The notes under the pieces: model-generated
What the model saw: the letters and a program-made list of their open reading frames with translations, nothing else
Told to the model about the DNA's origin: nothing
Databases searched by the model: none
Program-made: the position numbers and the translations under genes
Assembly: GCF_001425235.1 (NCBI RefSeq)
Contig: NZ_LMEA01000001.1
Coordinates: 409,855 to 473,854 of the forward strand
Source of the DNA: Devosia sp. Root413D1
GTDB lineage: Bacteria; Pseudomonadota; Alphaproteobacteria; Rhizobiales; Devosiaceae
Reading direction: 5' to 3'
Length of the DNA stretch: 64,000 bases
In this document: positions 40,139-54,361 of the stretch, one piece after another
How positions within the stretch are numbered: the first letter of the stretch is position 1
How the letters are laid out: each line of letters starts with the position of its first letter

Positions 40139-40158
40139 CGCCATCTGAACGAGCCATC

Positions 40159-40728
40159 ATGCCCAAATCCGTCTATCTCGCCGGCCCGGAAGTCTTTCTG
40201 CCCAACGCCCGCGAAATCCTCGACCTGAAGATCGCGCTGACCCGCGAGGCGGGGCTGGTGCCGGTGTCGCCGGGCGACCTGGAATTCCCGCCCACCAACA
40301 GCAAGTGGGAGCTGGGCCTCGCGATCAGCGCCATCGACGAAAAGCTGATGCACTCGGCCGATGCGATCATCGCCAACCTGACGCCGTTCCGCGGCATCGC
40401 GGCGGACACCGGGACCTGCTTCGAGCTCGGCTTCATGTGCGCCCAGGGTAAGCCCGCCTTCGCCTATACCAACGTCAAGGCCGACCATGGCATCCGCACC
40501 CGCGACCACTTCAACGGCGAGTGGTACGCCGATGCCGAGGGCAAGCCGCGCGGCCCCGATCACATCCTGATCGAGGATCTCGGCTTCATCGACAACCTGA
40601 TGCTGCATGGCGGCGTGGTGAACCGCGGCGGCGCCGTGGTGGTGGGCGACGCGCCGGTCGGGCAGGAACTGACCGATATGACGGCGTTCAAGCGCGTGCT
40701 GGCGCTGGCGGTGGAGATGCTGGGGTAA
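40159..40728 (+). CDS. Nucleoside 2-deoxyribosyltransferase
   Basis: A 189-residue enzyme of the NDT family, which transfers or hydrolyses 2'-deoxyribose or related sugars on nucleosides and nucleotides. Substrate loop VYLAGPEVFLP opens the protein. The catalytic and substrate region is SADAIIANLTPFRGIAADTGTCFELGFMCAQG, where Asp-x-Gly-Thr and Glu at ELG are the family's nucleophile area. It closes the purine-salvage run and lies 20 nt after guaD. Confidence 0.88.
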   Translation: MPKSVYLAGPEVFLPNAREILDLKIALTREAGLVPVSPGDLEFPPTNSKWELGLAISAIDEKLMHSADAIIANLTPFRGIAADTGTCFELGFMCAQGKPAFAYTNVKADHGIRTRDHFNGEWYADAEGKPRGPDHILIEDLGFIDNLMLHGGVVNRGGAVVVGDAPVGQELTDMTAFKRVLALAVEMLG

Positions 40729-40750
40729 CACAACGCGCTGAGCGTGTGGC

Positions 40751-40857
40751 CACCCCCACCCTTGATCCCTCCCCACAAGGGGGAGGGAGACGTCTGAACC
40801 GTGAGCATGCAGCTACCGCCTCCCTCCCCCTTGTGGGGAGGGACTGAGGGTGGGGGT
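40751..40857. repeat. Dispersed hairpin repeat, family B copy 3
   Basis: CACCCCCACCCTTGATCCCTCC and GGAGGGACTGAGGGTGGGGGT form outer arms, with CCCCACAAGGGGGAGGGAGACG and CCTCCCTCCCCCTTGTGGGG inside. It separates the convergent nucleoside deoxyribosyltransferase and fabB genes. Confidence 0.8.
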
Positions 40858-40887
40858 GCCACAGCCGCGATGTTGGCAGGTTAGAGC

Positions 40888-42114
40888 TTACGCCGCGTCC
40901 GGATGCTGGAACACCAGCGTGGCGTTCGTCCCGCCGAAGCCAAAGCTGTTGCTGAGCGCGATGCCGATATCGACGTTGTCGCGGCGCTGCCTCAGGATCG
41001 GCATGTCCGAGAATACCGGGTCGAGTTCCTCGATATTGGCGCTTTCGCACAGGAACTTCTCGCGCATCATCAGGATGCAGTAGATCGATTCCTGCACGCC
41101 CGTGGCGCCGAGCGAGTGGCCGGTGAGCGATTTGGTGGCCGAGATTGGCGGGCAGCTCTCGCCATTGCCGAACACCGTGCGGATCGCTTCCATTTCCTTC
41201 AGATCGCCAACCGGCGTCGAGGTGGCGTGCGGGTTGATGTAGTCGACCTTGCCCTTCACCGTCGACAGCGCCTGCCGCATGCAGCGGATGGCGCCTTCGC
41301 CCGACGGGGCAACCATGTCGTAGCCATCCGAGGTCGCGCCATAGCCGACCAGTTCGGCGAGGATGGTGGCGCCGCGCGCCTTGGCGTGCTCGTATTCTTC
41401 GAGCACCAGCACGCCCGCGCCGCCGGCGATGACGAAGCCGTCGCGCTTTGCATCATAGGCGCGCGACGCCTTCTCGGGCGTGGCGTTGAAGTCGGTGGAC
41501 ATGGCGCCCATGGCGTCGAACAGGTTGCTGAGCGACCAGTCGAGATCCTCGTGGCCACCGGCGAACACGATGTCCTGCTTGCCCCACTGGATCTGTTCGT
41601 AGCCGGCGCCGATGCAGTGCTTCGAGGTCGCGCAGGCCGAGGTGATCGAGTAGTTGACGCCCTGGATCCCGAACGGCGTCGCCAGCGTCGCCGAAGCGGT
41701 CGAGCTCATCGCCTTGGGCACGGCCAGCGGCCCGATGCGCTTGGGGCCGCGTTCGCGGGTGATGTCTGCCGCTTCGATCAGCGTGGGGGTGGAGGGGCCG
41801 CCCGAGCCCATGATGATGCCGGTGCGCGGGTTCTTGATGTCTTTTTCCTCGAGCCCGGAATTGGCGATCGCCTCTTGCATGGCGATGTAATTCCACGCCG
41901 CGCCCTTGCCCATGAAGCGGGTGGTGCGGCGGTCGAGCACCGCGAACGGATCGAGCTTGGGCGCGCCATGCACCTGGCAGCGGAAGTTGTACTTGGCGTA
42001 GTCCTCGGCGAAAACAATGCCGGACTTGGCCTCCTTGAGGCTCACGATCACTTCATCGAGATTGTTTCCGATAGAGGAGACGATCCCCATGCCGGTGACG
42101 ACAACGCGCCTCAT
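40888..42114 (-). CDS. fabB: FabB, beta-ketoacyl-ACP synthase I
   Basis: A 408-residue condensing enzyme. The active-site cysteine is in [10 protein letters not shown] near residue 162, and the two catalytic histidines are in [14 protein letters not shown] and [11 protein letters not shown]. The N-terminus [15 protein letters not shown] is typical. It elongates unsaturated acyl-ACP made by FabA. It lies downstream of fabA on the same strand with a family E hairpin between them; fabI, which often follows in rhizobia, is absent here. Confidence 0.95.
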
Positions 42115-42158
42115 ATTGCCTCCTCTATGGCCGCGGCTCAGGTCCGGCGGCGGGCGTC

Positions 42159-42202
42159 GCGCTTTCAGGAAAAGTTGTGCGACTTTTCCGCTTCGAAAGC
42201 GC
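42159..42202. repeat. Short hairpin repeat, family E copy 3
   Basis: GCGCTTTC...GAAAGCGC outer stem around GGAAAAGT-TGTGCG-ACTTTTCC. It lies in the 104-nt fabA-fabB gap, where it could be folded in the polycistronic RNA. Confidence 0.75.
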
Positions 42203-42218
42203 GCAAATCAAGAAACCA

Positions 42219-42722
42219 TTAGGTGAACAGGCCTACGCGCAGGCCGGACATCTCGTAGATGATCTGGCCGTCGGCCTTCACCCAGCCGTCGGCGATGCCG
42301 AGCACGAGCTTGGACTTCATCACCCGCTTCAGGTCGATGCCATACTCGACGATTTTGACGTCATTAGTGATCTGGCCGGAAAATTTCACCTCGCCGCAGC
42401 CGAGTGCCCGACCCTTGCCGGGCGAGCCGTCCCAGCACAGGTAAAAGCCCAGCATCTGCCAGACGGCGTCGACGCCGAGGCAGCCGGGCATCACCGGGTC
42501 ACCGATGAAGTGGCACTGGAAGAACCACAGGCTGGGGTCCACGTCGAGTTCGGCGCGCACCAGGCCCTTGCCATACGCGCCACCTTCGCGGCTGATCTCG
42601 GTGATGCGGTTGAACATCAGCATCGGCGGGGCGGGCAACTGGGCATAGCCCTTGCCAAACAGCTCCCCCGTTCCGCTGCGGATCAGGTCGTCATACCCGT
42701 AGGCGTTCTTCCGATCCGTCAT
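42219..42722 (-). CDS. fabA: FabA, 3-hydroxydecanoyl-ACP dehydratase/isomerase
   Basis: A 167-residue hot-dog-fold enzyme that introduces the double bond of anaerobic unsaturated fatty acid synthesis. The catalytic histidine is in [20 protein letters not shown], which also carries the catalytic aspartate. The C-terminus ends in a family-typical RVGLF. It is the first gene of a fabA-fabB unit and is divergent from irr, an arrangement conserved in Rhizobiales. Confidence 0.96.
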
Positions 42723-42911
42723 CGGCCGGCTTTCTCCGTCGGTCAGTTGAGACCGTTACTAGAGAGCGGGGGGCGGGGGGTCAAGCGCGCCCAAGGAAGT
42801 GCGCGCCGCGACCCACCGTCGCGAGCGCCGGCCGCGACCGACCGCCGCTTGTGCAGAAGAGGCGCGAAAGTTATAAGCTCCAGGCTGATACGCCTCGTTG
42901 CCAAGGACCAG

Positions 42912-43358
42912 ATGACCGACCGCAGCCTCACCGCAAGGACCGTTCCGTCTCGCCGACCGTGCTTGACGGCAGTGTTGCGCATGGCGGGCCTGCGGCCGAC
43001 ACGTCAGCGTGTGGCCCTCGCCGAGCTGCTGTTCGCCGGCGCGCATCGCCATGTCAGCGCCGAGCAGCTGCATGCCGAAGCCGCCTCGGCACGGGTCAAC
43101 GTCTCGCTCGCCACCATCTACAACAGCCTGCACCAGTTCCGCGAAGCGGGCCTGCTGCGCGAAGTGGCGGTGGATGCGTCGCGCTCCTACTTCGACACCG
43201 ACACCTCGGACCATCACCACTTCTACCTCGAGGACGAGCAGCGGGTGATCGATATCCCGGCCTCGTCCATCGTCATCCAGAACCTGCCCGAGCCGCCCCG
43301 CGGCATGGACATCACCCATGTCGACGTGGTGGTCCGGGTGCGGAAGGTTCGGAGCTAA
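42912..43358 (+). CDS. irr: Irr, heme-responsive iron regulator of the Fur family
   Basis: A 148-residue Fur-superfamily regulator from ATG 42912. The winged helix includes LRPTRQRVALAELLFAGAHRHVSAEQLHAEA and VSLATIYNSLHQFREAGLLREV. The metal/heme site SDHHHFYLEDE has the three-histidine stretch typical of Irr, not a Fur-type cysteine set. Irr controls heme and iron genes in Rhizobiales and is degraded on heme binding. The position opposite fabA-fabB supports the Irr assignment. Confidence 0.92.
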   Translation: MTDRSLTARTVPSRRPCLTAVLRMAGLRPTRQRVALAELLFAGAHRHVSAEQLHAEAASARVNVSLATIYNSLHQFREAGLLREVAVDASRSYFDTDTSDHHHFYLEDEQRVIDIPASSIVIQNLPEPPRGMDITHVDVVVRVRKVRS

Positions 43359-43367
43359 CGCTCTATT

Positions 43368-43502
43368 CTGACTGACAGAGACGGCCCCCTCCCTCGCCAT
43401 TCGAGCATAGCTCTCATGGCCTTCTCGCCTCAAATCGCTCCACTGGAGCGATTTGCCCTACGGGACGGCTCGAAGTCCCCCATGAAGGGGGAGGTGAAGA
43501 GT
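43368..43502. repeat. 135-bp dispersed repeat, family D copy 2
   Basis: A near-identical reverse complement of 17484-17619, with the same central palindrome AAATCGCTCCACTGGAGCGATTT. It fills most of the gap after irr. A partial third copy of its edge (GGGAGGGGGCCGTCTGCTTC) follows around 43569-43595. Confidence 0.85.
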
Positions 43503-43616
43503 TGAGCTTGCGTCCTCGATTGTGCCAAGTGAACCGGCGGGGCACCTCCCCCCTTGTGGGTGAGGATGGGAGGGGGCCGTCTGCTTCAGTCAGCCTGTAC
43601 CCGGCCCCGGTGCCCC

Positions 43617-44210
43617 TCAGTCGAAGGCTTCGTCCTTGTAGACCCCCCACAGGTCGCCCTGGTGTACCCAGCCGTCAAAGCTTTGCGGGCTGCCGTTTAC
43701 CGGATGCGCGGTGGCGATCACCTTGCACCACTTGCCGTCGCATTCCTTGATGTCGACGCGGAAGCTCGGGGTCAGCCAGGCGCGGACGCCGGCCTGGTCA
43801 TTGGGGTCGCGGCGCAGCGCCACCGGCTCGGCGGCGGCGGGGGCGACGAGGCCGGCGCGTTTGCCCTGCAAGAGGTTCTGGTGCAGCCAGCCTTCGGAAC
43901 CGTCGGCATCGCGGATTTTGCGCCAGGTGTCGAACTCCTGGATGATCTCGACCGGCGTGCCGGCTTTCACATAGACCCAGGCGACGCCGTATTTGGTGCC
44001 CGGTCCGACCCGCACGTTGATCGGGTTGGAGCGGGTGGTGACGAAGCGCGGCAGCGGCAAGCCGCTCGGCCCTTCGGCGGCCGTCGCCAGCGCCGGCATA
44101 ACGGGGCCGGCCGCGGTGATCGCGGTGAGGAGTGCGGCGCGCAGAATCGTCTTGATCTGCCGCCCGTGGGAGCGCCTCGTGAGGAGCATGGAGCTGACTT
44201 TGCCGAACAT
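43617..44210 (-). CDS. Secreted SH3-domain protein
   Basis: A protein of about 197 residues from the ATG at 44210 (MFGKVSSML); 44249 and 44189 are alternatives. A signal peptide is visible around LRAALLTAITAAGPVMPALATAAE. Two bacterial SH3-like repeats follow: NPINVRVGPGTKYGVAWVYVKAGTPVEI with SEGWLHQNLL, and a second ending SFDGWVHQGDLWGVYKDEAFD. Such proteins often bind peptidoglycan or act in the envelope. It is divergent from the 2-hydroxyacid dehydrogenase gene. Confidence 0.82.
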   Translation of the reverse strand: MFGKVSSMLLTRRSHGRQIKTILRAALLTAITAAGPVMPALATAAEGPSGLPLPRFVTTRSNPINVRVGPGTKYGVAWVYVKAGTPVEIIQEFDTWRKIRDADGSEGWLHQNLLQGKRAGLVAPAAAEPVALRRDPNDQAGVRAWLTPSFRVDIKECDGKWCKVIATAHPVNGSPQSFDGWVHQGDLWGVYKDEAFD

Positions 44211-44280
44211 GACTTTGCAGGGGTGTGCTTTTTTTCTACACTTATGCAAAAGACCTTAATGGTCGCTGAAAGCGCTTCAT

Positions 44281-45297
44281 TTGACCCTCAGCCGACCCAA
44301 GATTTTCGTGACGCGACGCCTGCCCGAACAGATCGAGGCGCGCATGGCGACGCTGTTCGAGGTGACTTCGAAACCGGTCGATGGCGTGTTGAGCGCCGAT
44401 GCCATTATCGAGGGCGTTCAGGGCAAGGATGTGCTGGTCTCTTCGATCAACGATCCGATCGATGCGGCGCTGATCGCCCGGCTGCCACCGGAGTTGAAGC
44501 TGATCGCCCAGTTCGGCAACGGTTTCGACAATATCGACATCGAAGCGGCCTATGCGGCCGGGCTCACCGTCACCAACACTCCGTCGGTGTTGACCGAGGA
44601 TACCGCCGACATGGCGGTGATGCTGATGCTGGCGTTGCCGCGCCGGCTGGTCGAAGGCGCCCAGGTGCTGCCCGCCACCGGCGAGTGGCCGGGCTGGTCG
44701 CCGACCTGGATGCTCGGCCGCCGGCTGCGCGGCAAGGCGCTCGGCATTGTCGGCATGGGGCGGATCGGCACCGCCGTCGCCAACCGGGCCCGCAGCTTTG
44801 GCCTCAACATCCATTATTTCTCCCGCCACCGCCGACCGCCACAGGTCGAGGAAGCGCTGGGCGCCACCTATTGGGCTGAGCTCGACGAGATGGTCGGCGA
44901 GGTCGATATCGTCTCCCTGCACACCCCGCTCAGCCGGTCGACCCACCACATCCTCAGCGCCGAACGGCTGAGGCGGATGCGGCAGGATGCCTTCGTGGTC
45001 AACGTGTCGCGGCCCGAACTGGTCGACGAGGCGGCGCTGATCGCCGAGATCGAGAGCGGGCACCTCTCGGGTGCCGCGCTCGACGTGTTCGAGAGCCGCA
45101 ACGGCATCGATCCGCGGCTGCTGCAGCTGGCGCGCGACAACCGCGTCGTGCTCACCGCCCACATGGCCTCGGCCACGCTCGAAGCGCGGCTCGAGATGGG
45201 CGAGACGGTGATCGTCAACATCCGCGCCTTCATCGACGGCGCCCAGCCCCCGCACCGGGTGCTGCCGGAGGGGCGGGGCAAGCTGGCGCGGGGGTGA
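44281..45297 (+). CDS. D-2-hydroxyacid dehydrogenase
   Basis: A 338-residue NAD(P)-dependent oxidoreductase. The Rossmann motif GIVGMGRIGTAVANRAR lies near residue 158. The catalytic set is Arg in VNVSRPELVDE, Glu in DVFESRNGI and His in LTAHMASATLEAR. The subgroup includes glyoxylate, hydroxypyruvate and formate-type dehydrogenases; the substrate is uncertain. The frame opens at TTG 44281 without a clear ribosome binding site, so the exact start is unsure. Confidence 0.88.
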   Translation: MTLSRPKIFVTRRLPEQIEARMATLFEVTSKPVDGVLSADAIIEGVQGKDVLVSSINDPIDAALIARLPPELKLIAQFGNGFDNIDIEAAYAAGLTVTNTPSVLTEDTADMAVMLMLALPRRLVEGAQVLPATGEWPGWSPTWMLGRRLRGKALGIVGMGRIGTAVANRARSFGLNIHYFSRHRRPPQVEEALGATYWAELDEMVGEVDIVSLHTPLSRSTHHILSAERLRRMRQDAFVVNVSRPELVDEAALIAEIESGHLSGAALDVFESRNGIDPRLLQLARDNRVVLTAHMASATLEARLEMGETVIVNIRAFIDGAQPPHRVLPEGRGKLARG

Positions 45298-45328
45298 TGG
45301 TAAGTCGGGCCGCGAGAAGGCACCCAAA

Positions 45329-46570
45329 CTACTGCTGTTGCGCTTGGCCCAGCTCCCGCAACCGCCCCTCGAGAAATCGCTGCTCCGCCGCCTGGTGCGT
45401 CAGTTCCAGTGCTGCCACATACGCTGCCCGGGCCTCCTCCGTCCGGCCCAACCGGCGCAGCAGGTCGGCGCGGGCGGCGTGCAGGTAGCGGAACTCGGTG
45501 AGCGCGCCAGCCTGGCGAATGGTCTCGATTTCGCTCAACCCCGCTTCCGGCCCGTCCCGCATGGCGATAGCGACGGCGCGGTTGAGCATGACGATCGGCG
45601 AGGCATCGGCGCGCAGCAGCAGGTCGTAGAGCTTGACGATCTCGCCCCAGTTGGTCGCTTCGGGCGAGGCGGCGATGGCATGCTGGGCGGCAATTGCCGC
45701 CTCGATGCCGTAGGCGGTGAGCTCGGGGCGCGCCATCAGCCGGTTGACCAGGGCAATGCCCTCGGCGATCTCGGCCCGGTCCCAGAGCCGCCGGTCCTGG
45801 TCGGCGATCAGCACCAGGTCGCCGGCTGCATCGGTGCGGGCGTCGCGCCGCGAGTGCTGCAGGAGCATCAGCGCCAGCAACCCCTCGACCTCGGCGTCCG
45901 GGTTGGGCAGGAGCGCAATCAGCAGCCGCCCGAGCCGGATCGCCTCGGCGCAGAGGTCGGCCCGCAGCAGGTTGTCGCCATGGCTGGCGGCGTAGCCTTC
46001 GTTGAAGATCAGGTAGACGGTGCGCAACACCGCATCGAGCCGCTCGGCCAGATCCTGAGGTTCGGGCACCTCATAGGGCAGCTCGAGTTCGCGGATGCGG
46101 TTCTTGGCCCTGACGATGCGCTGGGCGATGGCGGTCGGCTTGGCGAGGAACGCCGCAGCGATCTCCTCGGTCATGAGCCCGCAGGTCTCGCGCAGCGTCA
46201 TGGCGATGCGCGCGTCGGCGGGCACCTGCGGGTGGCAACAGACGAAGATCAGCCGCAGCTGATCATCGGCGATGGATTCGGCTTCGGGCGGCATTTGCGC
46301 CTCCTCTTCGAGCGCCAGTTCGGCGGCGACCACGTCGAACCGGGCCTTGCGGCGCAGCCGGTCGATCGCCTTGAAGCGGCCGGCCGAAACCAGCCAGGCG
46401 CGCGGGTTGGCCGGCATGCCGTCGCGCGGCCATTGCTCGGCGGCAGCGAGGAAGGCGTCGTTGAGCGCTTCCTCGGCGCGGTCGAAATCCCTGAGCAGCC
46501 GGATCAGCGTCGCCAGCACCCGGCGCGATTCGGTGCGCCATACCGCCTCGATGTCGATTGGCCGGGTCAT
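45329..46570 (-). CDS. ECF sigma factor with C-terminal helical extension (ECF42-like)
   Basis: A 413-residue RNA polymerase sigma factor from ATG 46570. Region 2 is near the N-terminus (LIRLLRDFDRAEEALNDAFLAAAEQWP, then RAWLVSAGRFKAIDRLRRKA). Region 4 is LRETCGLMTEEIAAAFLAKPTAIAQRIVRAKNRIREL. The remaining 230 residues are helical repeats typical of ECF42 (DUF6596 type). ECF42 factors are known to associate with DGPF/YciI proteins, and two such genes lie at 49442-49816 and 53859-54287. No anti-sigma factor is visible, as expected for this group. Confidence 0.88.
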   Translation of the reverse strand: MTRPIDIEAVWRTESRRVLATLIRLLRDFDRAEEALNDAFLAAAEQWPRDGMPANPRAWLVSAGRFKAIDRLRRKARFDVVAAELALEEEAQMPPEAESIADDQLRLIFVCCHPQVPADARIAMTLRETCGLMTEEIAAAFLAKPTAIAQRIVRAKNRIRELELPYEVPEPQDLAERLDAVLRTVYLIFNEGYAASHGDNLLRADLCAEAIRLGRLLIALLPNPDAEVEGLLALMLLQHSRRDARTDAAGDLVLIADQDRRLWDRAEIAEGIALVNRLMARPELTAYGIEAAIAAQHAIAASPEATNWGEIVKLYDLLLRADASPIVMLNRAVAIAMRDGPEAGLSEIETIRQAGALTEFRYLHAARADLLRRLGRTEEARAAYVAALELTHQAAEQRFLEGRLRELGQAQQQ

Positions 46571-46822
46571 GAGGTACGCACCCACACGCTGACTAGACGA
46601 AAGTCTGATGCAGCTGCGCCGCCAGCCGGCGTCGGCTTTAGCGTGGCTAAAACCCTTGGCAACCCGGGCCTTTCAGCAAATTCGTGCCAAAGCTTAGGCG
46701 ATCTATAGATTGAATTGTCGCGAGTAATCACGTTGCCAGCCTCATATGCTCAAGCTTAGCCTCGAAGTGACGGCCTGACCGAATGGGAAGCGGAAGGAAA
46801 CGTCGTCCTTCGGAGGAATATC

Positions 46823-48409
46823 ATGACTGAATTCAAGTCTGGAATGAGCCGGCGCGACCTGCTGGCGATGATCGGTACTGTGGCCGGCAGTGTCGCGATG
46901 TACAACGCCATGACGACGCTCGGCTTCGCCCAGGCCTCGACGTATGACGGCCCGGTGAAGCTGGAAGGCGACCCCAAGGGCGCTTCGGTGCTGATCCTGG
47001 GCGCCGGTCTTGCCGGCATGACCGCGGCGCTCGAGCTGCGTGCCGTCGGCTACAAGGTTCAGGTGCTGGAGTATCGCGAGAAGGCCGGCGGCCGCTGCTG
47101 GACGCTGCGCGGCGGCGACAAATATGTCGAGCTGGGTGGCTTCGAGCAGGAGGTGAAGTTCGCCGAAGGCAACTACATCAACCCAGGCCCGTGGCGCATC
47201 CCGCACCACCACTATGGCGTGCTCGACTATTGCAAGCGCTTCGGCGTCAAGCTCGAGCCCTTCATCCAGACCAATTTCAACGCCTACCTGCACCGCACCG
47301 ACGCCTTCGAGGGCAAGCCCGTCCGCTTCCGCGAGGCGCTGACCGACTATCGCGGCCATGTCTCGGAACTGCTCGCCAAGGTGGTCAACCAGAACGCCCT
47401 CGACGAAACGGTCAGCGCCGATGATGCCAAGCTGCTGCTCGAGTCGCTGAAGACCTGGGGCGTGCTCGATGAGAACTATGCCTACGTGAAGAGCAACGAC
47501 ACCTCGGAGTTCCGCGGCTGGGCCAAGGAGCCGGGCGGCGGCGTCGATGGCGCGCCGGTGCCATCCGAGCCGATGACGCTTTCCGACGTGCTGCAGTCGC
47601 GTGTCTGGCAGCACCTTGTCGACGGCGACAGCATCGAGCACCAGTCGACCATCTTCCAGCCGGTCGGCGGCATGGACATGATCGCCAAGGGCTTCGAGAA
47701 GGAAGTCGGCGATCTCATCACCTACAACGCCAAGGTCACCAAGATCGACCAGTCGGACACCGGCGTGACGGTGACCTATGTCGACAGCCAGAGCGGCGAA
47801 GGCACCGAGACGGCGAGCGCCGACTACTGCATCTGCACCATCCCGTTCTCCATCCTCGGCCAGATCGAGCATAACCTGTCGGGCGAGATGACCGCGGTCA
47901 TCGACTCGATGTCCTATGCCGGTTCGGTGAAGTTCGGCCTCGAGTTCAAGCGCCGCTTCTGGGAGCAGGACGAGCGCATCTATGGCGGTATCACCTACAC
48001 CAACCTGCCGATCTCGCTGATCTCCTACCCCTCGACCAACTATTTCAGCGATGGTCCGGGCGTGCTGCTGGGCGGCTATTCGTGGGGCGCCACGGCCTAC
48101 CAGTTCAACGCCATGTCGCCCGAGGATCGGGTGAAGAAGGCCGTCGAATATGGGGCGCAGATCCATCCGCAATACACCGCGGAGTTTTCCAACGGCGTGG
48201 CCGTCACCTGGCACCGGGTGCCGTGGGTGCTGGGCTGCTTCGGCATCTGGGCCGACAAAGAGAACCAGTATGCCACCGCCGCGGCAATGGATGGCCGCAC
48301 CCTGATGGCGGGCGAGCACATCTCCTACCTGCCGGCCTGGCAGGAAGGCGCCATCCTCTCCGCCATCGATGCGATCAAGCGCCTGCATGCGCATGTGACC
48401 GCCGCCTGA
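46823..48409 (+). CDS. Tat-exported flavin amine oxidase/dehydrogenase
   Basis: A 528-residue flavin-containing monoamine-oxidase-family protein. A twin-arginine signal, SRRDLLAM at residues 9-16, followed by a hydrophobic stretch, predicts export in folded form with FAD. FAD-binding motifs are VLILGAGLAGMTAALEL (about 56-72) and YREKAGGRCWTLRGG; the C-terminal FAD-contact region is MAGEHISYLPAWQEGAILS. An ideal GGAGGAA precedes the ATG. The substrate amine is unknown. It begins an operon with a cytochrome c and a secreted RidA protein, which suggests a dehydrogenase passing electrons to cytochrome rather than oxygen. Confidence 0.9.
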   Translation: MTEFKSGMSRRDLLAMIGTVAGSVAMYNAMTTLGFAQASTYDGPVKLEGDPKGASVLILGAGLAGMTAALELRAVGYKVQVLEYREKAGGRCWTLRGGDKYVELGGFEQEVKFAEGNYINPGPWRIPHHHYGVLDYCKRFGVKLEPFIQTNFNAYLHRTDAFEGKPVRFREALTDYRGHVSELLAKVVNQNALDETVSADDAKLLLESLKTWGVLDENYAYVKSNDTSEFRGWAKEPGGGVDGAPVPSEPMTLSDVLQSRVWQHLVDGDSIEHQSTIFQPVGGMDMIAKGFEKEVGDLITYNAKVTKIDQSDTGVTVTYVDSQSGEGTETASADYCICTIPFSILGQIEHNLSGEMTAVIDSMSYAGSVKFGLEFKRRFWEQDERIYGGITYTNLPISLISYPSTNYFSDGPGVLLGGYSWGATAYQFNAMSPEDRVKKAVEYGAQIHPQYTAEFSNGVAVTWHRVPWVLGCFGIWADKENQYATAAAMDGRTLMAGEHISYLPAWQEGAILSAIDAIKRLHAHVTAA

Positions 48410-48434
48410 CCGCCGTTTCAGAAAGGACTTTGAC

Positions 48435-48827
48435 ATGACAAAGCTCACGATTGCCGCGGCGGCGGCCCTCTCCCTGTTCTTGACGGCACCGGCCATGGCG
48501 CAGGACGCGGCCATGTTCGCCTCGCCCAGCAAGCTGACCCAGACCGGCGGCGAGAACATCTACAAGGCAATCTGCGCCGGCTGCCACATGCCTGAGGGGC
48601 AGGGCGCGGTGGGCGCCGGCAAGTACCCGGCGCTCGCCAATAACGCCAACCTCGAATCTGCCGGCTACCCGATCTACCTGATCATCCACGGCCAGAAGGC
48701 GATGCCGGCGCTCGGCTCCGTGCTCGACGACCAGCAGATCGCCGATGTCGTCGCCTATATCCGCACCAGTTTCGGCAATGACTTCGCCGAGCCGGTGACG
48801 GTCGAGGAAGTGACCGACGCGCGCTAA
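48435..48827 (+). CDS. Periplasmic class I cytochrome c
   Basis: A 130-residue c-type cytochrome with a signal peptide cleaved after AMA (about residue 22). The heme attachment motif is ICAGCHMPEGQG near residue 48, and the distal methionine ligand is in KAMPALGSVL. A single heme site and YIRTSFGN near the C-terminus fit a small soluble class I cytochrome. It follows the amine oxidase gene by 25 nt and is its likely electron acceptor. Confidence 0.9.
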   Translation: MTKLTIAAAAALSLFLTAPAMAQDAAMFASPSKLTQTGGENIYKAICAGCHMPEGQGAVGAGKYPALANNANLESAGYPIYLIIHGQKAMPALGSVLDDQQIADVVAYIRTSFGNDFAEPVTVEEVTDAR

Positions 48828-48843
48828 GCGCGCGGTGACCCCG

Positions 48844-48866
48844 CCGTCCGGGCTCTGTCCGGACGG
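48844..48866 (+). other. Hairpin between cytochrome c and RidA genes
   Basis: CCGTCCGG and CCGGACGG form an 8-bp perfect stem around a 7-nt loop. No T tract follows, so it is more likely an RNA-processing or stability element than a terminator. Confidence 0.4.
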
Positions 48867-48911
48867 TGCGTCCCTTTGGGACCTGTATCTCCATCTATTG
48901 GGAAGACCAGC

Positions 48912-49412
48912 ATGACCAGACTCCTCAGCACCAAGACATTTGCCCTGGCCCTCGGCCTCGCCATCCTCGTAGCCGGCCCGGTGCTGGCGGAGGATGTGAT
49001 CCGCCACACCAACCCCAACTCCAATTTCCCGATCGCCCGCGCCGTCGAAATTCCGGCTGGCAAGACCACCATCTATCTGAGCGGCGCCGTTCCGAGCGTC
49101 GTTGACGAGAGCGCCGATCGGGCCACCCCTGCCGCCTATGGCGACATGGAGACCCAGACCACCAGCGTGCTGCAATCGATCGAGAAGACCCTGGCCGATC
49201 TCGGTCTCGGGCTCGGCGATGTGGTCAAGATGCAGGCCTATCTCGTGGCTCCGGACGGCAAGCTCGATTTCGAGGGTTTCATGAAGGGCTACACCAAGTT
49301 CTTCGGCACCGAGGCGCAGCCCAACCTGCCGGCCCGCTCGGTGATGACCGTCGCCGGCCTTGTCAGCCCTGGCTGGCTGGTCGAGATCGAAGTCACTGCC
49401 GTCCGGCCGTAA
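48912..49412 (+). CDS. Secreted RidA/YjgF-family imine deaminase
   Basis: A 166-residue precursor from ATG 48912 with a signal peptide (FALALGLAILVAGPVLAEDV). RidA proteins hydrolyse reactive enamines and imines released by flavin or PLP enzymes. The family is normally cytoplasmic, so the signal peptide is unusual. AVEIPAGKTTIYLSGAVPS, LGLGLGDVVKMQAYLVAPD and ARSVMTVAGLVSPGWLVEIE follow the RidA fold, with the conserved substrate Arg in the ARSVMTV segment. It is third in the amine oxidase operon. Confidence 0.88.
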   Translation: MTRLLSTKTFALALGLAILVAGPVLAEDVIRHTNPNSNFPIARAVEIPAGKTTIYLSGAVPSVVDESADRATPAAYGDMETQTTSVLQSIEKTLADLGLGLGDVVKMQAYLVAPDGKLDFEGFMKGYTKFFGTEAQPNLPARSVMTVAGLVSPGWLVEIEVTAVRP

Positions 49413-49441
49413 CGCCGATTCGAACTGCAGGGCGCGGCTGC

Positions 49442-49816
49442 TCATCTGGCCGCGTCCTGGTGTTTCGGCACCTGGTAGATCGGTCGTACCTCGATGGTGC
49501 CGTGCTGGGCCAGCGGAACGCCGCCGGCAATGCGGATCGCGTCGTTGAGGTCGCGCGCCTCGATCAGGATGAAGCCACCCAGCTGTTCCTTGGTCTCGAG
49601 AAACGGCCCGTCGGTCGCCGAGATCCTGCCGTCCCGCACCCGCACCAGCACTGCGCTCTCGGGCGCCTGCAGCGCCTGCGCCCGGATCAGGTTGCCGCTG
49701 GCTTCGAGCTCGCGGTCATAGCCGGTCGAGGCGATGTCGAGCTCGCGCTTTTCGGCTTCGCTCATCCGGCGGAACACTTCCTTGTCGTCGAAATGGACGA
49801 GGCAGACATAAAGCAT
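49442..49816 (-). CDS. DGPF/YciI-family protein (ECF42-associated type) 1
   Basis: A 124-residue YCII-fold protein with the diagnostic ATDGPFLETKEQLGGF near residue 66 and the typical ending GTIEVRPIYQVPKHQD. The role of DGPF proteins is unknown; they are known neighbours and targets of ECF42 sigma factors. A TGTCGA sequence with a CGAT 17 nt later lies upstream (49865-49891), consistent with ECF42-type control. It converges on the RidA gene. Confidence 0.85.
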   Translation of the reverse strand: MLYVCLVHFDDKEVFRRMSEAEKRELDIASTGYDRELEASGNLIRAQALQAPESAVLVRVRDGRISATDGPFLETKEQLGGFILIEARDLNDAIRIAGGVPLAQHGTIEVRPIYQVPKHQDAAR

Positions 49817-49864
49817 GGTGGTTCTCCGCTTGCGATGGTGCGCTGGCTTGGGGGTCGTGAGCTA

Positions 49865-49891
49865 ATCGAACGCCGCCGCCGGGTTTCGACA
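49865..49891 (-). promoter_or_regulatory. Possible ECF42-type promoter
   Basis: On the minus strand TGTCGA (49886-49891) and CGAT (49865-49868) are separated by 17 nt, about 50 nt upstream of the DGPF gene start. This resembles the TGTCGA / CG(A/T)C pattern I recall for ECF42 targets. Both elements are short and could be chance. Confidence 0.35.
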
Positions 49892-50018
49892 TGGATTCAT
49901 GCGAATCGAGCCAGATTCCTGCGGGACTGTCGAACGGGTGGGGCGCGGACGCATTTTAGCGATTTGCTTGCCTCCGTCTTCACCACACCGTTTCATCGCC
50001 CGCTAAGCGCTTCTCCCG

Positions 50019-51830
50019 ATGGCCGAACGCAGCAATGCCGATCTTTGCCATTATGCCCCCAATCGAGGAGCCTGGGGGCTTTCCAATCCGATGTTCGCCG
50101 GCCTCACCGCTGTGACTGAGCCCAAGCCGCTGCCGGTGCGGGCTCGTTCGCGCCTGCTGTCGCTCGCCACCGTTGCGCTGGTGGTCACGCTGGTGGTGAC
50201 GGCGATCGCTGGGTTCATGCATGTCGGTGGCCAGCAGCGCGCCATGACCGAGCTCAGGGGCGAGGCCGACCAGTTGCGCGCCATGTCCCAGGCCGTGGCC
50301 GACGCCGATGCCGACATCATGCATTTCCTCACCGGGGAAGCGGGTGCGCTGCGCACCTACCTGTCCCAGGTCGAGCGCTTGAGCAGCGCCGATGCTGCGA
50401 TCTTCGATGTGGTAAGCCCGATCGCGGCCTCGCCATCGGCCGAACCACAGCGCCTGCGCGAACTTGTCGCCGGGCTGGTCAACAACTGGAACGAAGCGAT
50501 CGACCTCGCGACTTCCGGCAACCGGCAAGCCGGGCTCGACCTGCTGGCGAGCCGCCGTACCGGCGAGACCGTAACGGCCATCGGTGCTGGCGTCGGCCGG
50601 GTGCTCGGCGATACTGACCTCAGGGTACGCACGCACGATATCCGTATCCAGGCCGGTACCATGCTGGTGCTGGTGATGCAGCTGGGAGCGGGCCTGCTCG
50701 CCATCCTCGGCCTGCTCTATGCTTTCCGGTCTTCGGCCACCGAGGCCGATGGCCGCGCCGCGGCGGTGGAGGCGGCCGACAGGGCGCGCCAGCAGGTGGG
50801 GCGGTTGTTCGAGATGGCGGACGTGCTGCAGAGCGCTTCGGACCATGCCGACGCCAATGCCGTGCTGAAGGCGACGGCGATGGAGCTGGTGCCCGGCTTC
50901 TCGGGGGCGCTCTATGTGTTCAACAATTCCCGCGACCGGTTGGTGCTCTCGACCACCTGGGCGCGTTCGGAGAACGACGCGCTGCCCGAAACCATCAACC
51001 CCACCGCCTGCTGGGCGGTGAAGCGCGGCAAGCCGCACCTCAACCGCGCCGATTCCGCCAAGCTGTGCTGCAGCCACCATGTCGGCAACGAGACCTCGCT
51101 CGAAATCCCGATGATCGCGCGGGGCGAAATCGTCGGGCTGCTGCAGCTGTTCGCTTCCGGCGTCAGCGCCGAGCAGCGGCTGGAACACATCACCGCGCTG
51201 GGTTCGGCCCTGGCCGATGGCATGAGTCTGGCGCTCGCCAACATGGCATTGCGCGAAAAGCTCCGGAACCAGGCGCTGCGCGACCCGCTGACCGGGCTCT
51301 ACAACCGCCGCTACATGGAAGATTGCCTGCAGCGCTTCGTCCGGCTGGCCGAGCGCGAGAACCGTGAGATTTCGCTGATCATGGTCGATCTCGATCACTT
51401 CAAGCGGCTCAACGACGAGCATGGCCACAGCTTTGGCGACCAGGTGCTGCGCGATGCCGCGCTGACGCTGACCGGCTCGCTGCGCGAGACCGATATCGTT
51501 TGCCGTTTCGGCGGCGAGGAACTGGTGGTGATCCTGCCCGATTGCCCGCTGGAGCGGGCCGCCGACAAGGCGGAACTGCTGCGGCTCAGGATCGAGGAGC
51601 TGAGCAACACGCACGGCACCGATATCTCGGCCTCGTTCGGCGTCGCCTCGGTGCCGCATACCTCGCAGAGCGTCACCGACCTGCTGCAGGCCGCCGACCA
51701 GGCGCTCTACAAGGCCAAGCAGAGTGGACGCAATCAGGTGGCCAAAGCGCCGCTGCGCCCGTACCGGCCGGACCGCATGGGCGACGAGTTGGCCGCGCTG
51801 GAGGAATTTTCGCGGGCGGCGGCGGAGTAG
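50019..51830 (+). CDS. Membrane GAF-GGDEF diguanylate cyclase
   Basis: A 603-residue receptor. Two membrane helices (about residues 46-68 and 208-235) enclose a helical periplasmic domain, then comes a GAF-like domain (about 255-405) and a C-terminal GGDEF domain. The active-site motif reads GGEEL, and the RETD inhibitory site for c-di-GMP lies five residues before it, so it should be an active, feedback-inhibited cyclase. DPLTGLYNRRYM marks the start of the GGDEF domain. ATG 50019 is taken; 50091 is an alternative start. Confidence 0.9.
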   Translation: MAERSNADLCHYAPNRGAWGLSNPMFAGLTAVTEPKPLPVRARSRLLSLATVALVVTLVVTAIAGFMHVGGQQRAMTELRGEADQLRAMSQAVADADADIMHFLTGEAGALRTYLSQVERLSSADAAIFDVVSPIAASPSAEPQRLRELVAGLVNNWNEAIDLATSGNRQAGLDLLASRRTGETVTAIGAGVGRVLGDTDLRVRTHDIRIQAGTMLVLVMQLGAGLLAILGLLYAFRSSATEADGRAAAVEAADRARQQVGRLFEMADVLQSASDHADANAVLKATAMELVPGFSGALYVFNNSRDRLVLSTTWARSENDALPETINPTACWAVKRGKPHLNRADSAKLCCSHHVGNETSLEIPMIARGEIVGLLQLFASGVSAEQRLEHITALGSALADGMSLALANMALREKLRNQALRDPLTGLYNRRYMEDCLQRFVRLAERENREISLIMVDLDHFKRLNDEHGHSFGDQVLRDAALTLTGSLRETDIVCRFGGEELVVILPDCPLERAADKAELLRLRIEELSNTHGTDISASFGVASVPHTSQSVTDLLQAADQALYKAKQSGRNQVAKAPLRPYRPDRMGDELAALEEFSRAAAE

Positions 51831-51865
51831 CTCGGGCTCGTGCCGCTACCGCCGGTGGCTGTGGA

Positions 51866-51968
51866 CCTCCACCCTTAATCCCTCCCCGCAAGGGGGAGGG
51901 AGACGCAGACTGCGAGGCCAGTGTTTTGGTCACCCTCCCCCTTGCGGGGAGGGGACAGGGGTGGGGGG
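51866..51968. repeat. Dispersed hairpin repeat, family B copy 4
   Basis: CCTCCACCCTTAATCCCTCC and GGAGGGGACAGGGGTGGGGGG arms with CCCCGCAAGGGGGAGGG and CCCTCCCCCTTGCGGGG inside. It lies between the convergent GGDEF gene and the small secreted protein gene. Confidence 0.8.
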
Positions 51969-51997
51969 CAGCCGGCAGCGGCTAGGTCCGCCGCGCT

Positions 51998-52282
51998 CTA
52001 AGGCAAATAGCTCGGCTTGGTCCGCATCAGCTCGGTTTGCAGCTGCTGCTGCAGCATTTTCTGCTGCTGCAGGTCGCGCTGCAGTTTGGAGAGCGTTGCA
52101 TCAATCTCGCTCCGGATGGCGCGATCCCGGGCCGATTGCGCCAGCTCGTTCTGCAGGCACAGCGTGCGTTGCAAGTCGTTGCCCTGGTAGCCGTCCTTGG
52201 CGACGTCGGGCACCGGAGGGCAATAGGCTAGCGCCCCCGAGCTGAGGGCAATAACCGCGACGGTGGCGAGCAAAATCCGCAT
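51998..52282 (-). CDS. Small secreted coiled-coil protein
   Basis: A 94-residue precursor from ATG 52282 (MRILLATVAVIALSSGALA signal peptide); ATG 52303 would add seven residues. The mature protein has two cysteines (YCPPVPD and RTLCLQNEL) and a long Gln-rich amphipathic helix (LSKLQRDLQQQKMLQQQLQT), probably a coiled coil. I do not recognise the family. It ends 36 nt before a downstream hairpin repeat. Confidence 0.7.
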   Translation of the reverse strand: MRILLATVAVIALSSGALAYCPPVPDVAKDGYQGNDLQRTLCLQNELAQSARDRAIRSEIDATLSKLQRDLQQQKMLQQQLQTELMRTKPSYLP

Positions 52283-52318
52283 AGCCGGAATCTGGGCATT
52301 CACGTCCCCCGGATCAAG

Positions 52319-53383
52319 TCACGATCGCGCGCTTGGGCCTGCGGTACTGTTTCGCACCAGCAGCTCGAGCGGCAGGCTTTCGCGGTGCACCCCGCCATCG
52401 TGCTCGAGGATGGTCTTGACCGCCCGGCGGCCGATTTCGGCGATCGGCTGCACCACGGTGGTGAGCGGCGGGTTGACGGTGGCGGCTTCCGGCACGCCGT
52501 CGAAACCGACGATCGAGATGTCCTCGGGGACGCTGAGGCCGCGCTCGGCGAGGATCTCGAGCGCGAACATGGCGACACGATCCGACATCGCCAGAATGGC
52601 GGTGGGGCGCTCGCCGGCCGTGAGGATGTAGTCGAGCCCGCGCCTGACGCTCTCGGCGGTGCTGCGGGTTTCGTAGATCGGGATGGTCTCGCGGTCGATG
52701 CCGTAGAGCGCCAACTCCTCGAAATAGCCATAGGCGCGGTCGCGCGAGGTGGAGTAGGTGGCGGCGGCGATTGCGGCGCTGCCGACCGGCCCCTCGTGCG
52801 CGTCGTCGAGCTCGAGCCCGAGAATGCCGAAGCGGCGGTGGCCGAGCTGCGCCAGATGCCGGGCGGCCATCTGCGCCCCGGCATAGTCATCGACGCCGAT
52901 GGCCGAGATGGTGTCATCGGGTTTGCCGAGCGCCAGCGCCACGAAGGGCAGCTGCCGCTCACGCGTCAGCTCCACCAGCTTTTCGCCATTCTCGATGCAG
53001 AGCAGCACGAATCCGTCGACCAGCGCGCTCTGGATATTCCAGGCCAGCCGCTCGCTGTTGCGGGCCGACACCAGCGCCAGGCCGGCGCCGCGCGCATCGC
53101 AGGCCTCCGAGATGCCTTGCATCAGGACGCGGGCAAACGGATCTTCGAAGAAGTAGGAAAGCGGCTCCGCGGTGGCGACGCCGATGGCGTTGGATTTGCC
53201 GGCGCGCAGCAGCCGGCCGCGCGGATCGGGTCCGGCATAGCCGAGGTCGCGGGCCGTCTGGTGCACCCGCTCGCGCACCTCCGGTCGCACCAGGTCCGGC
53301 CGGCTGAACACGTTCGACGCTGTGCCCTGCGACACCCCCGCCGCCTTTGCCACATCGCTCAAGCGCACCAGATCGCGTGCCAT
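52319..53383 (-). CDS. LacI-family transcriptional regulator
   Basis: A 354-residue repressor from ATG 53383. The DNA-binding headpiece reads VRLSDVAKAAGVSQGTASNVFSRP, where the usual VSxxTVSRVLN pattern is altered to GTASNVF. The periplasmic-binding-protein-like core includes ILGLELDDAHEGPVGSAA and TAILAMSDRVAMFALEILAERGLSVPEDISIVGFDG. The effector is probably a sugar or nucleoside. Three matching 14-nt operators lie 101-195 nt upstream of its start, towards a divergent small gene. Confidence 0.93.
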   Translation of the reverse strand: MARDLVRLSDVAKAAGVSQGTASNVFSRPDLVRPEVRERVHQTARDLGYAGPDPRGRLLRAGKSNAIGVATAEPLSYFFEDPFARVLMQGISEACDARGAGLALVSARNSERLAWNIQSALVDGFVLLCIENGEKLVELTRERQLPFVALALGKPDDTISAIGVDDYAGAQMAARHLAQLGHRRFGILGLELDDAHEGPVGSAAIAAATYSTSRDRAYGYFEELALYGIDRETIPIYETRSTAESVRRGLDYILTAGERPTAILAMSDRVAMFALEILAERGLSVPEDISIVGFDGVPEAATVNPPLTTVVQPIAEIGRRAVKTILEHDGGVHRESLPLELLVRNSTAGPSARS

Positions 53384-53483
53384 CCGAACCTTTCCAGTTT
53401 TTGCGGCTCGTCTGCCGCCCCGAGGACAATCGTCCCGATTGCCTGAGGGCATCCTAGCCAACTCCCAGTCATATAGCACGCTT

Positions 53484-53578
53484 TTGTATCGGTTCAAATT
53501 CCGCTTGACTCTCAGGCATCGAAGCGTATGCTTGAACCGATTCAAGCGGTCATGCGTTGATCAATTGAATCGGTTCAA
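53484..53578. promoter_or_regulatory. Three LacI-family operators
   Basis: TTGTATCGGTTCAA (53484-53497), TTGAACCGATTCAA (53532-53545) and TTGAATCGGTTCAA (53565-53578) share the palindromic pattern TTGAAYCGRTTCAA with the central CG typical of LacI operators. Centres are 48 and 33 nt apart. They lie between the lacI-type gene and the divergent gene at 53597, so looping repression of both is plausible. Confidence 0.8.
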
Positions 53579-53596
53579 GTCGAAAGGAGACTTGTG

Positions 53597-53854
53597 ATGA
53601 TCCCCGCTAGCTATCTCTACAAGGACGCCTACAAGCAGCACTGGGGCGAAGATTTCGCCCGCCGGACCGGCGAAGCGCCATGGGAGGCGCATCCGGACGC
53701 CGGGCTGTGGGAAAAGCCTTCTCTATGGCGCGCGATAGGCGGCTTCATCGGCCGCCTGTTCGCCTCGAGCCGCGCGGCAGCCGCGGATGAAACTGAAGCT
53801 CCGGGGCGTCATTGCCCCGAAGCCACCGATCGCCGTCTGGCCCTGTCGCGGTGA
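53597..53854 (+). CDS. Small protein under LacI-type operators
   Basis: An 85-residue protein from ATG 53597, with AAAGGAGA 6 nt upstream; a GTG one codon earlier is possible. The sequence starts MIPASYLYKDAYKQHWGEDF, has an amphipathic central helix (LWRAIGGFIGRLFASSRA) and a polar tail. I do not recognise the family and no enzyme motif is visible. The three operators immediately upstream and the strong ribosome binding site argue that it is expressed. Confidence 0.65.
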   Translation: MIPASYLYKDAYKQHWGEDFARRTGEAPWEAHPDAGLWEKPSLWRAIGGFIGRLFASSRAAAADETEAPGRHCPEATDRRLALSR

Positions 53855-53858
53855 CGCT

Positions 53859-54287
53859 CTAGCGCTGCTCCGGCCACTGGCCGCTGTCGCGCAGCGCCTT
53901 CTCGCGATCCAGCGCTTCGGCCGAGACCTCGTCATAGGCATAGGCGAAGTCTTCGACCTCGGAAACGCGGCGGACTTCCACCTCCTCGCCTTCGTTCCAC
54001 ATCGGGATCTTCTTCACCCAGCCGATCGCCTCGTCGAGCGAGTCTGCCTTGACGATCCAGAAGCCGCCGACCAGCTCCTTGGCCTCGGTGAACGGGCCGT
54101 CCTTCACCACCAGCTTGCCGCCCTGCATCGCCACTTTCGCGCCGGTCTTGGATGGCTGCAGGCCCTCGCCTCCCAGCAAGACGCCGGCCTCGATCATTTC
54201 CTGGTTGAGCTTGCCCATCGCGGCCAGCATTTCCGAGCTTGGCGGCGGCGCCGGTTCAGTGGTCTTGACGATGATCATGTAGCGCAT
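53859..54287 (-). CDS. DGPF/YciI-family protein (ECF42-associated type) 2
   Basis: A 142-residue YCII-fold protein from ATG 54287, preceded by GAGGAGA. The start MRYMIIVKTTEP and the motif VKDGPFTEAKELVGGFWIVKA are typical of DGPF proteins. The C-terminus carries an extra acidic segment (EVEDFAYAYDE). Function is unknown. It converges on the small protein at 53597, with 4 nt between stops, and is 7.3 kb from the sigma factor gene. Confidence 0.85.
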   Translation of the reverse strand: MRYMIIVKTTEPAPPPSSEMLAAMGKLNQEMIEAGVLLGGEGLQPSKTGAKVAMQGGKLVVKDGPFTEAKELVGGFWIVKADSLDEAIGWVKKIPMWNEGEEVEVRRVSEVEDFAYAYDEVSAEALDREKALRDSGQWPEQR

Positions 54288-54330
54288 GGCGGGTCTCCTC
54301 GTTTGGTGGCCTTTCGAGCAGAGCTTGGCC

Positions 54331-54361
54331 CAAAACAAAAGGCCCGGTCAAACCGGGCCTT
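54331..54361 (-). terminator. Rho-independent terminator after 54386-54586
   Basis: AAGGCCCGGT and ACCGGGCCTT form a 10-bp stem. On the minus strand it is followed by TTGTTTTGGG. It separates the 66-residue gene from the DGPF gene downstream. Confidence 0.8.

Follow-up and report, generated by a model that had tools for sequence, protein, structure and literature searches.

A conserved gene trio for an exported L-amino acid oxidase-type flavoenzyme, a cytochrome c and a Rid protein in Devosia: a probable periplasmic L-amino acid:cytochrome c oxidoreductase

Introduction

Why would a bacterium place genes for a flavin-dependent oxidoreductase, a cytochrome c and a Rid protein one after the other, each product bearing a signal for export? 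The question is raised by a locus of Devosia sp. Root413D1 (contig NZ_LMEA01000001.1, positions 409,855 to 473,854; this whole stretch of 64,000 nucleotides is called the window, and coordinates without a locus number refer to it). The original prediction took the three genes to specify a complete extracytoplasmic unit for amine catabolism that avoids hydrogen peroxide. We find that the flavoenzyme-cytochrome-Rid arrangement is real and widely conserved, and we consider it probable that the trio is a periplasmic L-amino acid:cytochrome c oxidoreductase accompanied by a dedicated imine deaminase.

Results

Conservation of the gene trio

Open reading frames (ORFs) and Pfam confirm three consecutive plus-strand genes of the flavin amine oxidase, cytochrome c and Rid families, as had been predicted (Table 1), and the adjacency holds up in relatives. 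In a 139-row tree of the flavoenzyme, a core clade of 112 rows (SH-aLRT 100) has the cytochrome gene next to the flavoenzyme gene in 112/112 rows and a Rid gene close by in 76/112; these rows are not independent, because 92 of the 112 comprise the window gene and loci retrieved on account of their similarity to it. Among genome-contig loci (the best 80 of 594 confirmed loci, a set that leans towards close relatives), the cytochrome lies downstream on the same strand in all 80, as a separate frame in 79 and fused to Rid in one, and Rid lies downstream of the flavoenzyme in 60. Of 12 plasmid loci, taken from the 30 listed among 88 plasmid records, 11 have the cytochrome downstream and the one from Deinococcus has it upstream; Rid lies downstream in 5. 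Evenly drawn samples, both of which contain the host genome, hold the flavoenzyme family in 27/398 genomes of the phylum and 20/385 of the class (E 1e-40). The core-type genes of the phylum sample, including the window gene, have an adjacent cytochrome c in 17/17 cases and Rid close by in 11/17 (one of the 31 matches in this sample had no locus); those newly seen in the class sample have them in 4/4 and 1/4. Since the adjacency is conserved in relatives, it is not due to chance. At 28 distant FAD-protein loci of relatives (L003-L030 in our locus numbering), 21 of them with a flavoenzyme match, there was no cytochrome or Rid match at E 1e-5, which is a weak control given its short flanks (about 3 kb each in the loci printed) and single-sequence probes.

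The 26 outer rows of the tree comprise a monoheme group (five rows, all with Rid), a diheme group (three rows, all with Rid) and 18 rows with no cytochrome seen nearby, seven of which have Rid. In three distant relatives (L141, L144 and L145), the partner of enzyme and Rid is a c4-like diheme cytochrome, about 200 residues long, instead of the monoheme one; two frames with CxxCH near L142 and L143 did not read like cytochromes and were left out of the cytochrome count. Built quickly, the tree has long outer branches and an unsure outer order, and it leaves out L176 (short) as well as two genes almost identical to that of the window (L043 and L123). Gene content for rows beyond the 93-sequence set covers about 1.5 kb of flank. 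An independent-pairs comparison of cytochrome against Rid on this tree offered two usable pairs and had no power.

The flavoenzyme

The best solved match of the flavoenzyme is the Rhodococcus opacus L-amino acid oxidase (LAAO; 2jae, E 2.1e-88 over residues 49-525, with 174/467 aligned positions identical), and the next solved matches are LAAOs of the vertebrate type. Together with the PF01593 domain, the protein has the carboxylate-binding arginine and the substrate-binding tyrosine that mark an LAAO. R125 aligns with the arginine of the vertebrate-type LAAOs and is kept in 112/112 core and 26/26 outer rows, position 419 is tyrosine in 107/112 core rows (phenylalanine in 5) and in 26/26 outer rows, and K370 and W506 are kept in 138/138. 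All four residues are identical in the R. opacus LAAO, whose active-site Arg84, Tyr371 and Trp467 we take, with an offset of one, to fall on R125, Y419 and W506. In the snake LAAO, Arg90 holds the carboxyl group of the substrate and Tyr372 binds the ligand (PMC7052187). Because LAAOs are the closest solved relatives and the carboxylate-binding arginine is invariant, the substrate would most likely be an alpha-amino acid, of the L form by homology. The broader expectation that amines in general, such as polyamines and heterocyclic amines, are the substrates gives way to L-amino acids as the likely ones. Nor can peroxide avoidance be read from the locus, since the lysine expected near flavin N5 (K370), whose role is stated in PMC12224317, is present throughout and the reactivity of these enzymes with O2 is not predictable from sequence alone according to the authors of that article.

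The loss of a tryptophan was considered as a mark of cytochrome use. As a rule, Trp is absent at position 473, presumably the equivalent of R. opacus Trp426, from the core clade and from the three diheme-cytochrome rows. Five outer monoheme-cytochrome rows retain it, so the state of this residue cannot separate cytochrome users and its loss was rejected as a mark. The adjoining residue, C472 (48236-48238), is conserved to at least 97% over 93 rows, and the three diheme rows share it.

Export signals and the cytochrome c

The predicted export of all three proteins is borne out by motif and by a crude n-region, h-region and cleavage-site rule that we used in place of SignalP and TatP. The flavoenzyme carries the expected SRRDLLAM at residues 9-16, and the twin-arginine pair is present as R/K-R in 138/138 aligned family rows. 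Both other proteins have the hydrophobic N-termini described originally (MTKLTIAAAAALSLFLTAPAMA in the cytochrome and MTRLLSTKTFALALGLAILVAGPVLA in Rid), and both pass the crude rule as Sec-type leaders. The CAGCH of the cytochrome is likewise present; CxxCH is found in 91/91 aligned cytochromes, as is a candidate axial methionine, M90. The locus thus shows, at the level of motif and crude rule, the pattern of a flavin amine oxidase (FAO) with a twin-arginine translocation (Tat) signal adjacent to a cytochrome c (CytC) with a Sec signal. The host genome has tatC, ccmE and three PF00115 (COX1) genes.

The Tat leader region (46823-46945) is itself unusually conserved, M30, G34, S39 and Y41 being invariant in a 12-row alignment. 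This seems to exceed the need of a leader that is simply cleaved; residues 39 and 41 may be situated past the cleavage point.

The Rid protein

The best solved matches of the Rid protein are PSPTO3006 (E 1.6e-31) and PFL1385 (E 1.3e-30), two Rid3 proteins (structures 9bka and 9bkc). R142, which we take from the PARS motif to stand at the position of RidA Arg105, is kept in 66/66 aligned Rid proteins. Closest to these two proteins and with the needed arginine in place, the window protein is of the Rid3 type by best match rather than by a subfamily model. Arg-105 is required in RidA, and PFL_1385 and PSPTO_3006, both assigned to Rid3, deaminate imino acids made by an L-amino acid oxidase, and iminoarginine as well (PMC5619798).

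A Sec-type leader is predicted by the crude rule for 58/66 Rid genes that adjoin a flavoenzyme-cytochrome pair; the eight failures are one fusion and seven cases of n-region charge, among which one protein has a cysteine of the lipoprotein type. Fifteen genes of family PF01042 are present in the host genome; of the 14 besides the window gene, 12 were examined, and 11 of these fail the leader rule by reading. The twelfth (L188; contig C9, 533986-534327) passes, making it a second Rid-family gene of the host whose N-terminus resembles a leader.

Informative relatives

In an uncultured Sulfitobacter (L063, 7569-8540, +), a single reading frame runs from a leader through cytochrome and linker to Rid; no other frame among 93 sequences gave both matches. 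A frame error that merely joins two genes is unlikely, because no separate leader precedes the Rid part. Since c-type cytochromes mature outside the cytoplasm, the Rid domain of this fusion should be exported. On plasmids of Dinoroseobacter and Roseinatronobacter (L039, 297-7030; L042, 448-7029), the FAO-cytochrome pair lies beside cytochrome c oxidase subunit genes, and Xanthomonas has trios (L085, L096 and L109) whose enzyme is 60-61% identical to the window flavoenzyme.

Other arrangements depart further from the trio. The Metabacillus plasmid pBY2G20 (Bacillota; L156, 3977-7240), which was chosen because Rid and enzyme matches stood side by side and is therefore not a random case, carries Rid, tatA and tatC genes downstream of one for an LAAO-type enzyme with a twin-arginine start, and no cytochrome. 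Six plasmid loci, of 26 records, were opened from Rid matches (L153-L155, L157-L159). In one of these (L154) the flavoenzyme, cytochrome and Rid matches are in several pieces. In Proteus mirabilis (L159, 2470-4429), a DAO-family FAD frame of 474 residues that starts with SRRKLLLG is directly followed by a leader-bearing Rid relative.

Distribution of the flavoenzyme in Devosia

The flavoenzyme gene is accessory in the genus, with a full-length match in 1/18 congeneric genomes. It is 99% identical in a Devosia insulae DS-56 contig and in one congeneric genome, and a second genome collection holds it in D. submarina (83%) and D. geojensis (65%). One 12-row group of the tree unites the window gene and its D. 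submarina counterpart with rows from Paracoccus, Falsigemmobacter and Halomonas and one further row; D. geojensis and Mesorhizobium are placed apart from it. This placement suggests horizontal transfer of the gene.

Layout and neighbours

The gaps within the trio (25 bases between flavoenzyme and cytochrome, 84 between cytochrome and Rid) are compatible with co-transcription. No promoter-like and no terminator-like site was found in 46500-49700, where shuffled sequence gave means of 0.5 and 1.4. The Rid start was taken at the ATG that gives 166 residues; the ORF list also has a longer TTG start at 48876. NCBIfam gave no match over cut-off among 25/42 models listed for the flavoenzyme and all models for the cytochrome and Rid.

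Apart from the two nearest neighbours (Table 1), ten further flanking ORFs match amidohydrolase, deoxyribosyltransferase, ketoacyl synthase, FabA-like, SH3, 2-hydroxyacid dehydrogenase, GGDEF, LacI and YCII families in Pfam, one being unmatched. As the families on both sides are of other types, the trio appears to be a self-contained unit. It splits the DUF6596 extracytoplasmic function (ECF) sigma factor gene from a YCII gene, types that often occur together.

Table 1. Features of the locus (window coordinates)
Feature	Position	Strand	Description
Flavoenzyme gene	46823-48409	+	Tat-signal flavin amine/amino-acid oxidoreductase, LAAO type, 528 aa; PF01593 E 2.3e-57
N-terminal twin-arginine signal region	46823-46939	+	residues 1-39, with SRRDLLAMIG and AQAS
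R125	47195-47197	+	equivalent of carboxylate-binding Arg of LAAOs (snake Arg90)
K370	47930-47932	+	lysine expected near flavin N5
Y419	48077-48079	+	equivalent of second substrate-binding residue (snake Tyr372)
Cytochrome c gene	48435-48827	+	monoheme class I, Sec-type leader, 130 aa; PF13442 E 4.7e-14, PF00034 E 5.5e-11
Heme-binding CAGCH	48573-48587	+	cytochrome residues 47-51
Rid gene	48912-49412	+	exported Rid (Rid3-type), putative imine deaminase, 166 aa; PF01042 E 2e-17
Sec-type leader of Rid	48912-48989	+	about residues 1-26, by crude leader rule
R142	49335-49337	+	place of needed arginine of RidA (Arg105)
ECF-type sigma factor with DUF6596	45329-46585	-	nearest upstream neighbour, opposite strand to trio
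YCII-domain protein	49442-49816	-	nearest downstream neighbour, opposite strand to trio
Second YCII gene	53859-54338	-	Pfam

Discussion

A probable mechanism and the points against it

The most economical reading of this locus would be that cytochrome c serves as electron acceptor of the flavoenzyme and that Rid hydrolyses the imine. In the mechanism that we propose, the Tat-exported LAAO-type flavoenzyme would bind an L-amino acid in the periplasm through R125 and Y419, and hydride transfer to FAD would yield a 2-imino acid, as expected from the family. The reduced flavin would then pass electrons, one each time, to the adjacent cytochrome c and from there to a heme-copper oxidase, by analogy with NicA2/CycN and with tested FAO-CytC pairs. 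The exported Rid3-type protein would speed hydrolysis of the periplasmic imino acid to 2-oxo acid and ammonium, as two Rid3 relatives do in vitro. In sum, amino acids would be used outside the cytoplasm as a source of nitrogen, 2-oxo acids and electrons for respiration, and little hydrogen peroxide would be formed.

It is possible, and we offer this more tentatively, that a further lineage of cytochrome c-using flavin dehydrogenases has arisen on the LAAO scaffold, forming a periplasmic amino-acid respiration unit in which cytochrome and Rid3 act as one partner that handles both electrons and imine. The existence of a natural leader-cytochrome-linker-Rid fusion suggests that cytochrome and Rid sit together on the flavoenzyme, so that hydrolysis of the imine would coincide with reoxidation of the flavin.

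Several observations weigh against an L-amino acid:cytochrome c oxidoreductase with a dedicated Rid partner. The R. opacus LAAO, which is the closest solved enzyme, bears the name of an oxidase, and the lysine near N5 is conserved. The locus can do without Rid, as 36/112 core rows have none close by, and conversely three of the plasmid loci opened from Rid (L155, L157 and L158) show no flavoenzyme or cytochrome of the window families within about 4 kb; another locus that speaks against a fixed trio is L153, where cytochrome and Rid stand beside insertion sequence (IS) genes without the flavoenzyme. Just 66/91 cytochromes pass the crude leader rule, most failures being, by reading, start-codon choices or neutral n-regions. 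Among the FAO-CytC pairs that have been assayed, the candidate from B. anthina shows good reactivity with O2 too, and pairs of clade 1 gave no more than a modest reaction with their cytochrome (PMC12224317). Finally, the literature listings searched, which do not extend to most subscription journals, yielded no kinetics for this LAAO-type family and no measured use of cytochrome c by it.

Alternative explanations

It is conceivable that the trio serves to make indolepyruvate from tryptophan for auxin synthesis, as in Gluconacetobacter diazotrophicus, rather than general amino-acid catabolism. Such a role is compatible with the mechanism that we propose and differs from it in purpose. It draws on the phenotype of the G. 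diazotrophicus lao mutant, in which disruption of the oxidase gene abolishes auxin and nearly all formation of indolepyruvate from tryptophan (PMC5053998). The best indolepyruvate decarboxylase score in the host genome is 67 of 946 bits, hence none over cut-off; this is not decisive, as no suitable decarboxylase was found in G. diazotrophicus either (PMC5053998). Since the family also extends to Sulfitobacter, Halomonas and Deinococcus, and is thus not confined to plant-associated bacteria, we regard a dedicated auxin module as rather unlikely.

A periplasmic LAAO that uses O2 in vivo, with the cytochrome handling peroxide or acting as a generic carrier and Rid hydrolysing the imine, would account for the kinship to LAAOs and for the lysine near N5 in every aligned row. 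A twin-arginine start occurs together with Rid, and with no cytochrome seen nearby, in several outer members, and most tested Tat-FAOs without CytC are O2-reactive (PMC12224317). Against this scenario stands the cytochrome, which adjoins the flavoenzyme in every core row, is of the small class I type that is paired with tested dehydrogenases, and in two relatives is accompanied by cytochrome oxidase genes beside the pair. Moreover, ccm mutants of G. diazotrophicus lose auxin, retaining 5% of indoleacetic acid (IAA) in work cited in PMC5053998. We therefore consider an O2-dependent enzyme unlikely.

A NicA2-like dehydrogenase for polyamines, aromatic or heterocyclic amines is highly improbable: although the export logic of a Tat flavoenzyme and a Sec cytochrome c is that of NicA2-CycN (PMC12224317), the best solved matches to LAAOs and the invariant carboxylate-binding arginine led us to reject NicA2 as the closest kind, the 12 flanking ORFs (38396-54338) include no amine-pathway or transporter family by Pfam (one is unmatched), and NicA2, itself unaligned here, is not named among the best 60 of 99 solved matches listed, some of which are labelled just 'Amine oxidase'.

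Implications

If cytochrome c is the acceptor in this family, many Proteobacteria and some Deinococcus would respire amino acids outside the cytoplasm without peroxide, releasing ammonium and 2-oxo acids there, the auxin precursor in the case of tryptophan. A whole branch of enzymes that at present carry the annotation 'flavin monoamine oxidase family protein', or the name L-amino acid oxidase, would then consist of dehydrogenases, and the Rid3 subfamily would gain a defined periplasmic job. Taken with the Proteus pair, periplasmic imine deamination for respiratory amino-acid dehydrogenases could be the normal role of leader-bearing Rid3 proteins.

Comparison with known systems

The FAD protein of the Proteus locus (L159) is probably the Proteus L-amino acid deaminase, an enzyme that passes electrons to the respiratory chain. 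Like the window trio, this locus joins a twin-arginine FAD protein to a leader-bearing Rid; it differs in that its flavoprotein belongs to the DAO family (PF01266) and in that the stretch holds no cytochrome of the window family. Two unrelated families of exported amino-acid dehydrogenase would then share this Rid partner.

With NicA2/Pnao-CycN and other FAO-CytC systems, the window pair shares a Tat-signal FAO beside a Sec-signal class I cytochrome c, and direct electron transfer from flavin to heme would be expected as in those dehydrogenases. Tat-FAOs with an adjacent CytC were shown in 2025 to be dehydrogenases that mostly react far faster with CytC than with O2, a preference shown by most of the tested pairs of clades 2-3 (PMC12224317). 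That set was gathered by BLAST from NicA2, whereas the window enzyme is LAAO-type, and the terms RidA, Rid and 'amino acid oxidase' are absent from the main text of the article. The R. opacus LAAO, in turn, is described as an oxidase, whereas the core clade of the window enzyme pairs with cytochrome c.

The Rid3 proteins PFL_1385 and PSPTO_3006 have imino-acid deaminase activity in vitro and share the place of the needed arginine with the window Rid; PFL1385 also starts with a leader-like segment in our alignment. The main text of PMC5619798 does not use the words 'periplasm' or 'signal', and the Rid proteins were paired there with snake LAAO, DauA and cysteine desulfhydrase. Genes for RidA, and sometimes Rid3, are known to cluster with those for amine oxidases (PMC4433059). 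In Chlamydomonas, the extracellular L-amino acid oxidase LAO1 occurs with LAO2/RidA, and the article notes the parallel (PMC10805672), a pairing also cited in PMC5053998. The likeness to the window trio lies in an extracellular LAAO with a RidA protein; the algal unit differs in making hydrogen peroxide and in having no cytochrome c described in the available text. The original prediction held an exported Rid to be striking. A predicted leader is indeed present; because of the Chlamydomonas pair and the lao-cccA-ridA cluster described below, such a Rid is less surprising than it was thought to be. The literature listings searched yielded no demonstration of a periplasmic Rid in bacteria and no cytochrome-Rid fusion.

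The closest known system is lao-cccA-ridA (GDI2456-2454) of G. diazotrophicus PAL5, in which a Tat-signal LAAO is clustered with a cytochrome c and RidA (PMC5053998, 2016) and which the window trio matches in its adjacent, unidirectional order of flavoenzyme, cytochrome and Rid. Either of two Tn5 insertions in lao does away with IAA, about 2-4% of indolic compounds being left, and transcript levels of the three genes were all reduced in the lao mutant that was measured; the authors propose that cytochrome c and RidA assist the LAAO and name Xanthomonas as sharing the organisation (PMC5053998). The two clusters have the same gene types, order, Tat-signal LAAO and proposed roles, and differ in host and in sequence: compared via R. 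opacus LAAO, the G. diazotrophicus enzyme (533 aa) is 34% identical to it and the window enzyme (528 aa) agrees at the 174/467 positions given above. Export of RidA is not stated in the available text of PMC5053998. The window trio is thus not new in kind, as a like trio with proposed roles for cytochrome and Rid was already known. The present analysis adds the case for amino acids rather than amines from the carboxylate-binding arginine, the leader-bearing partner of the Rid3 type, the constancy of the cytochrome in one clade, and the fusion of cytochrome and Rid.

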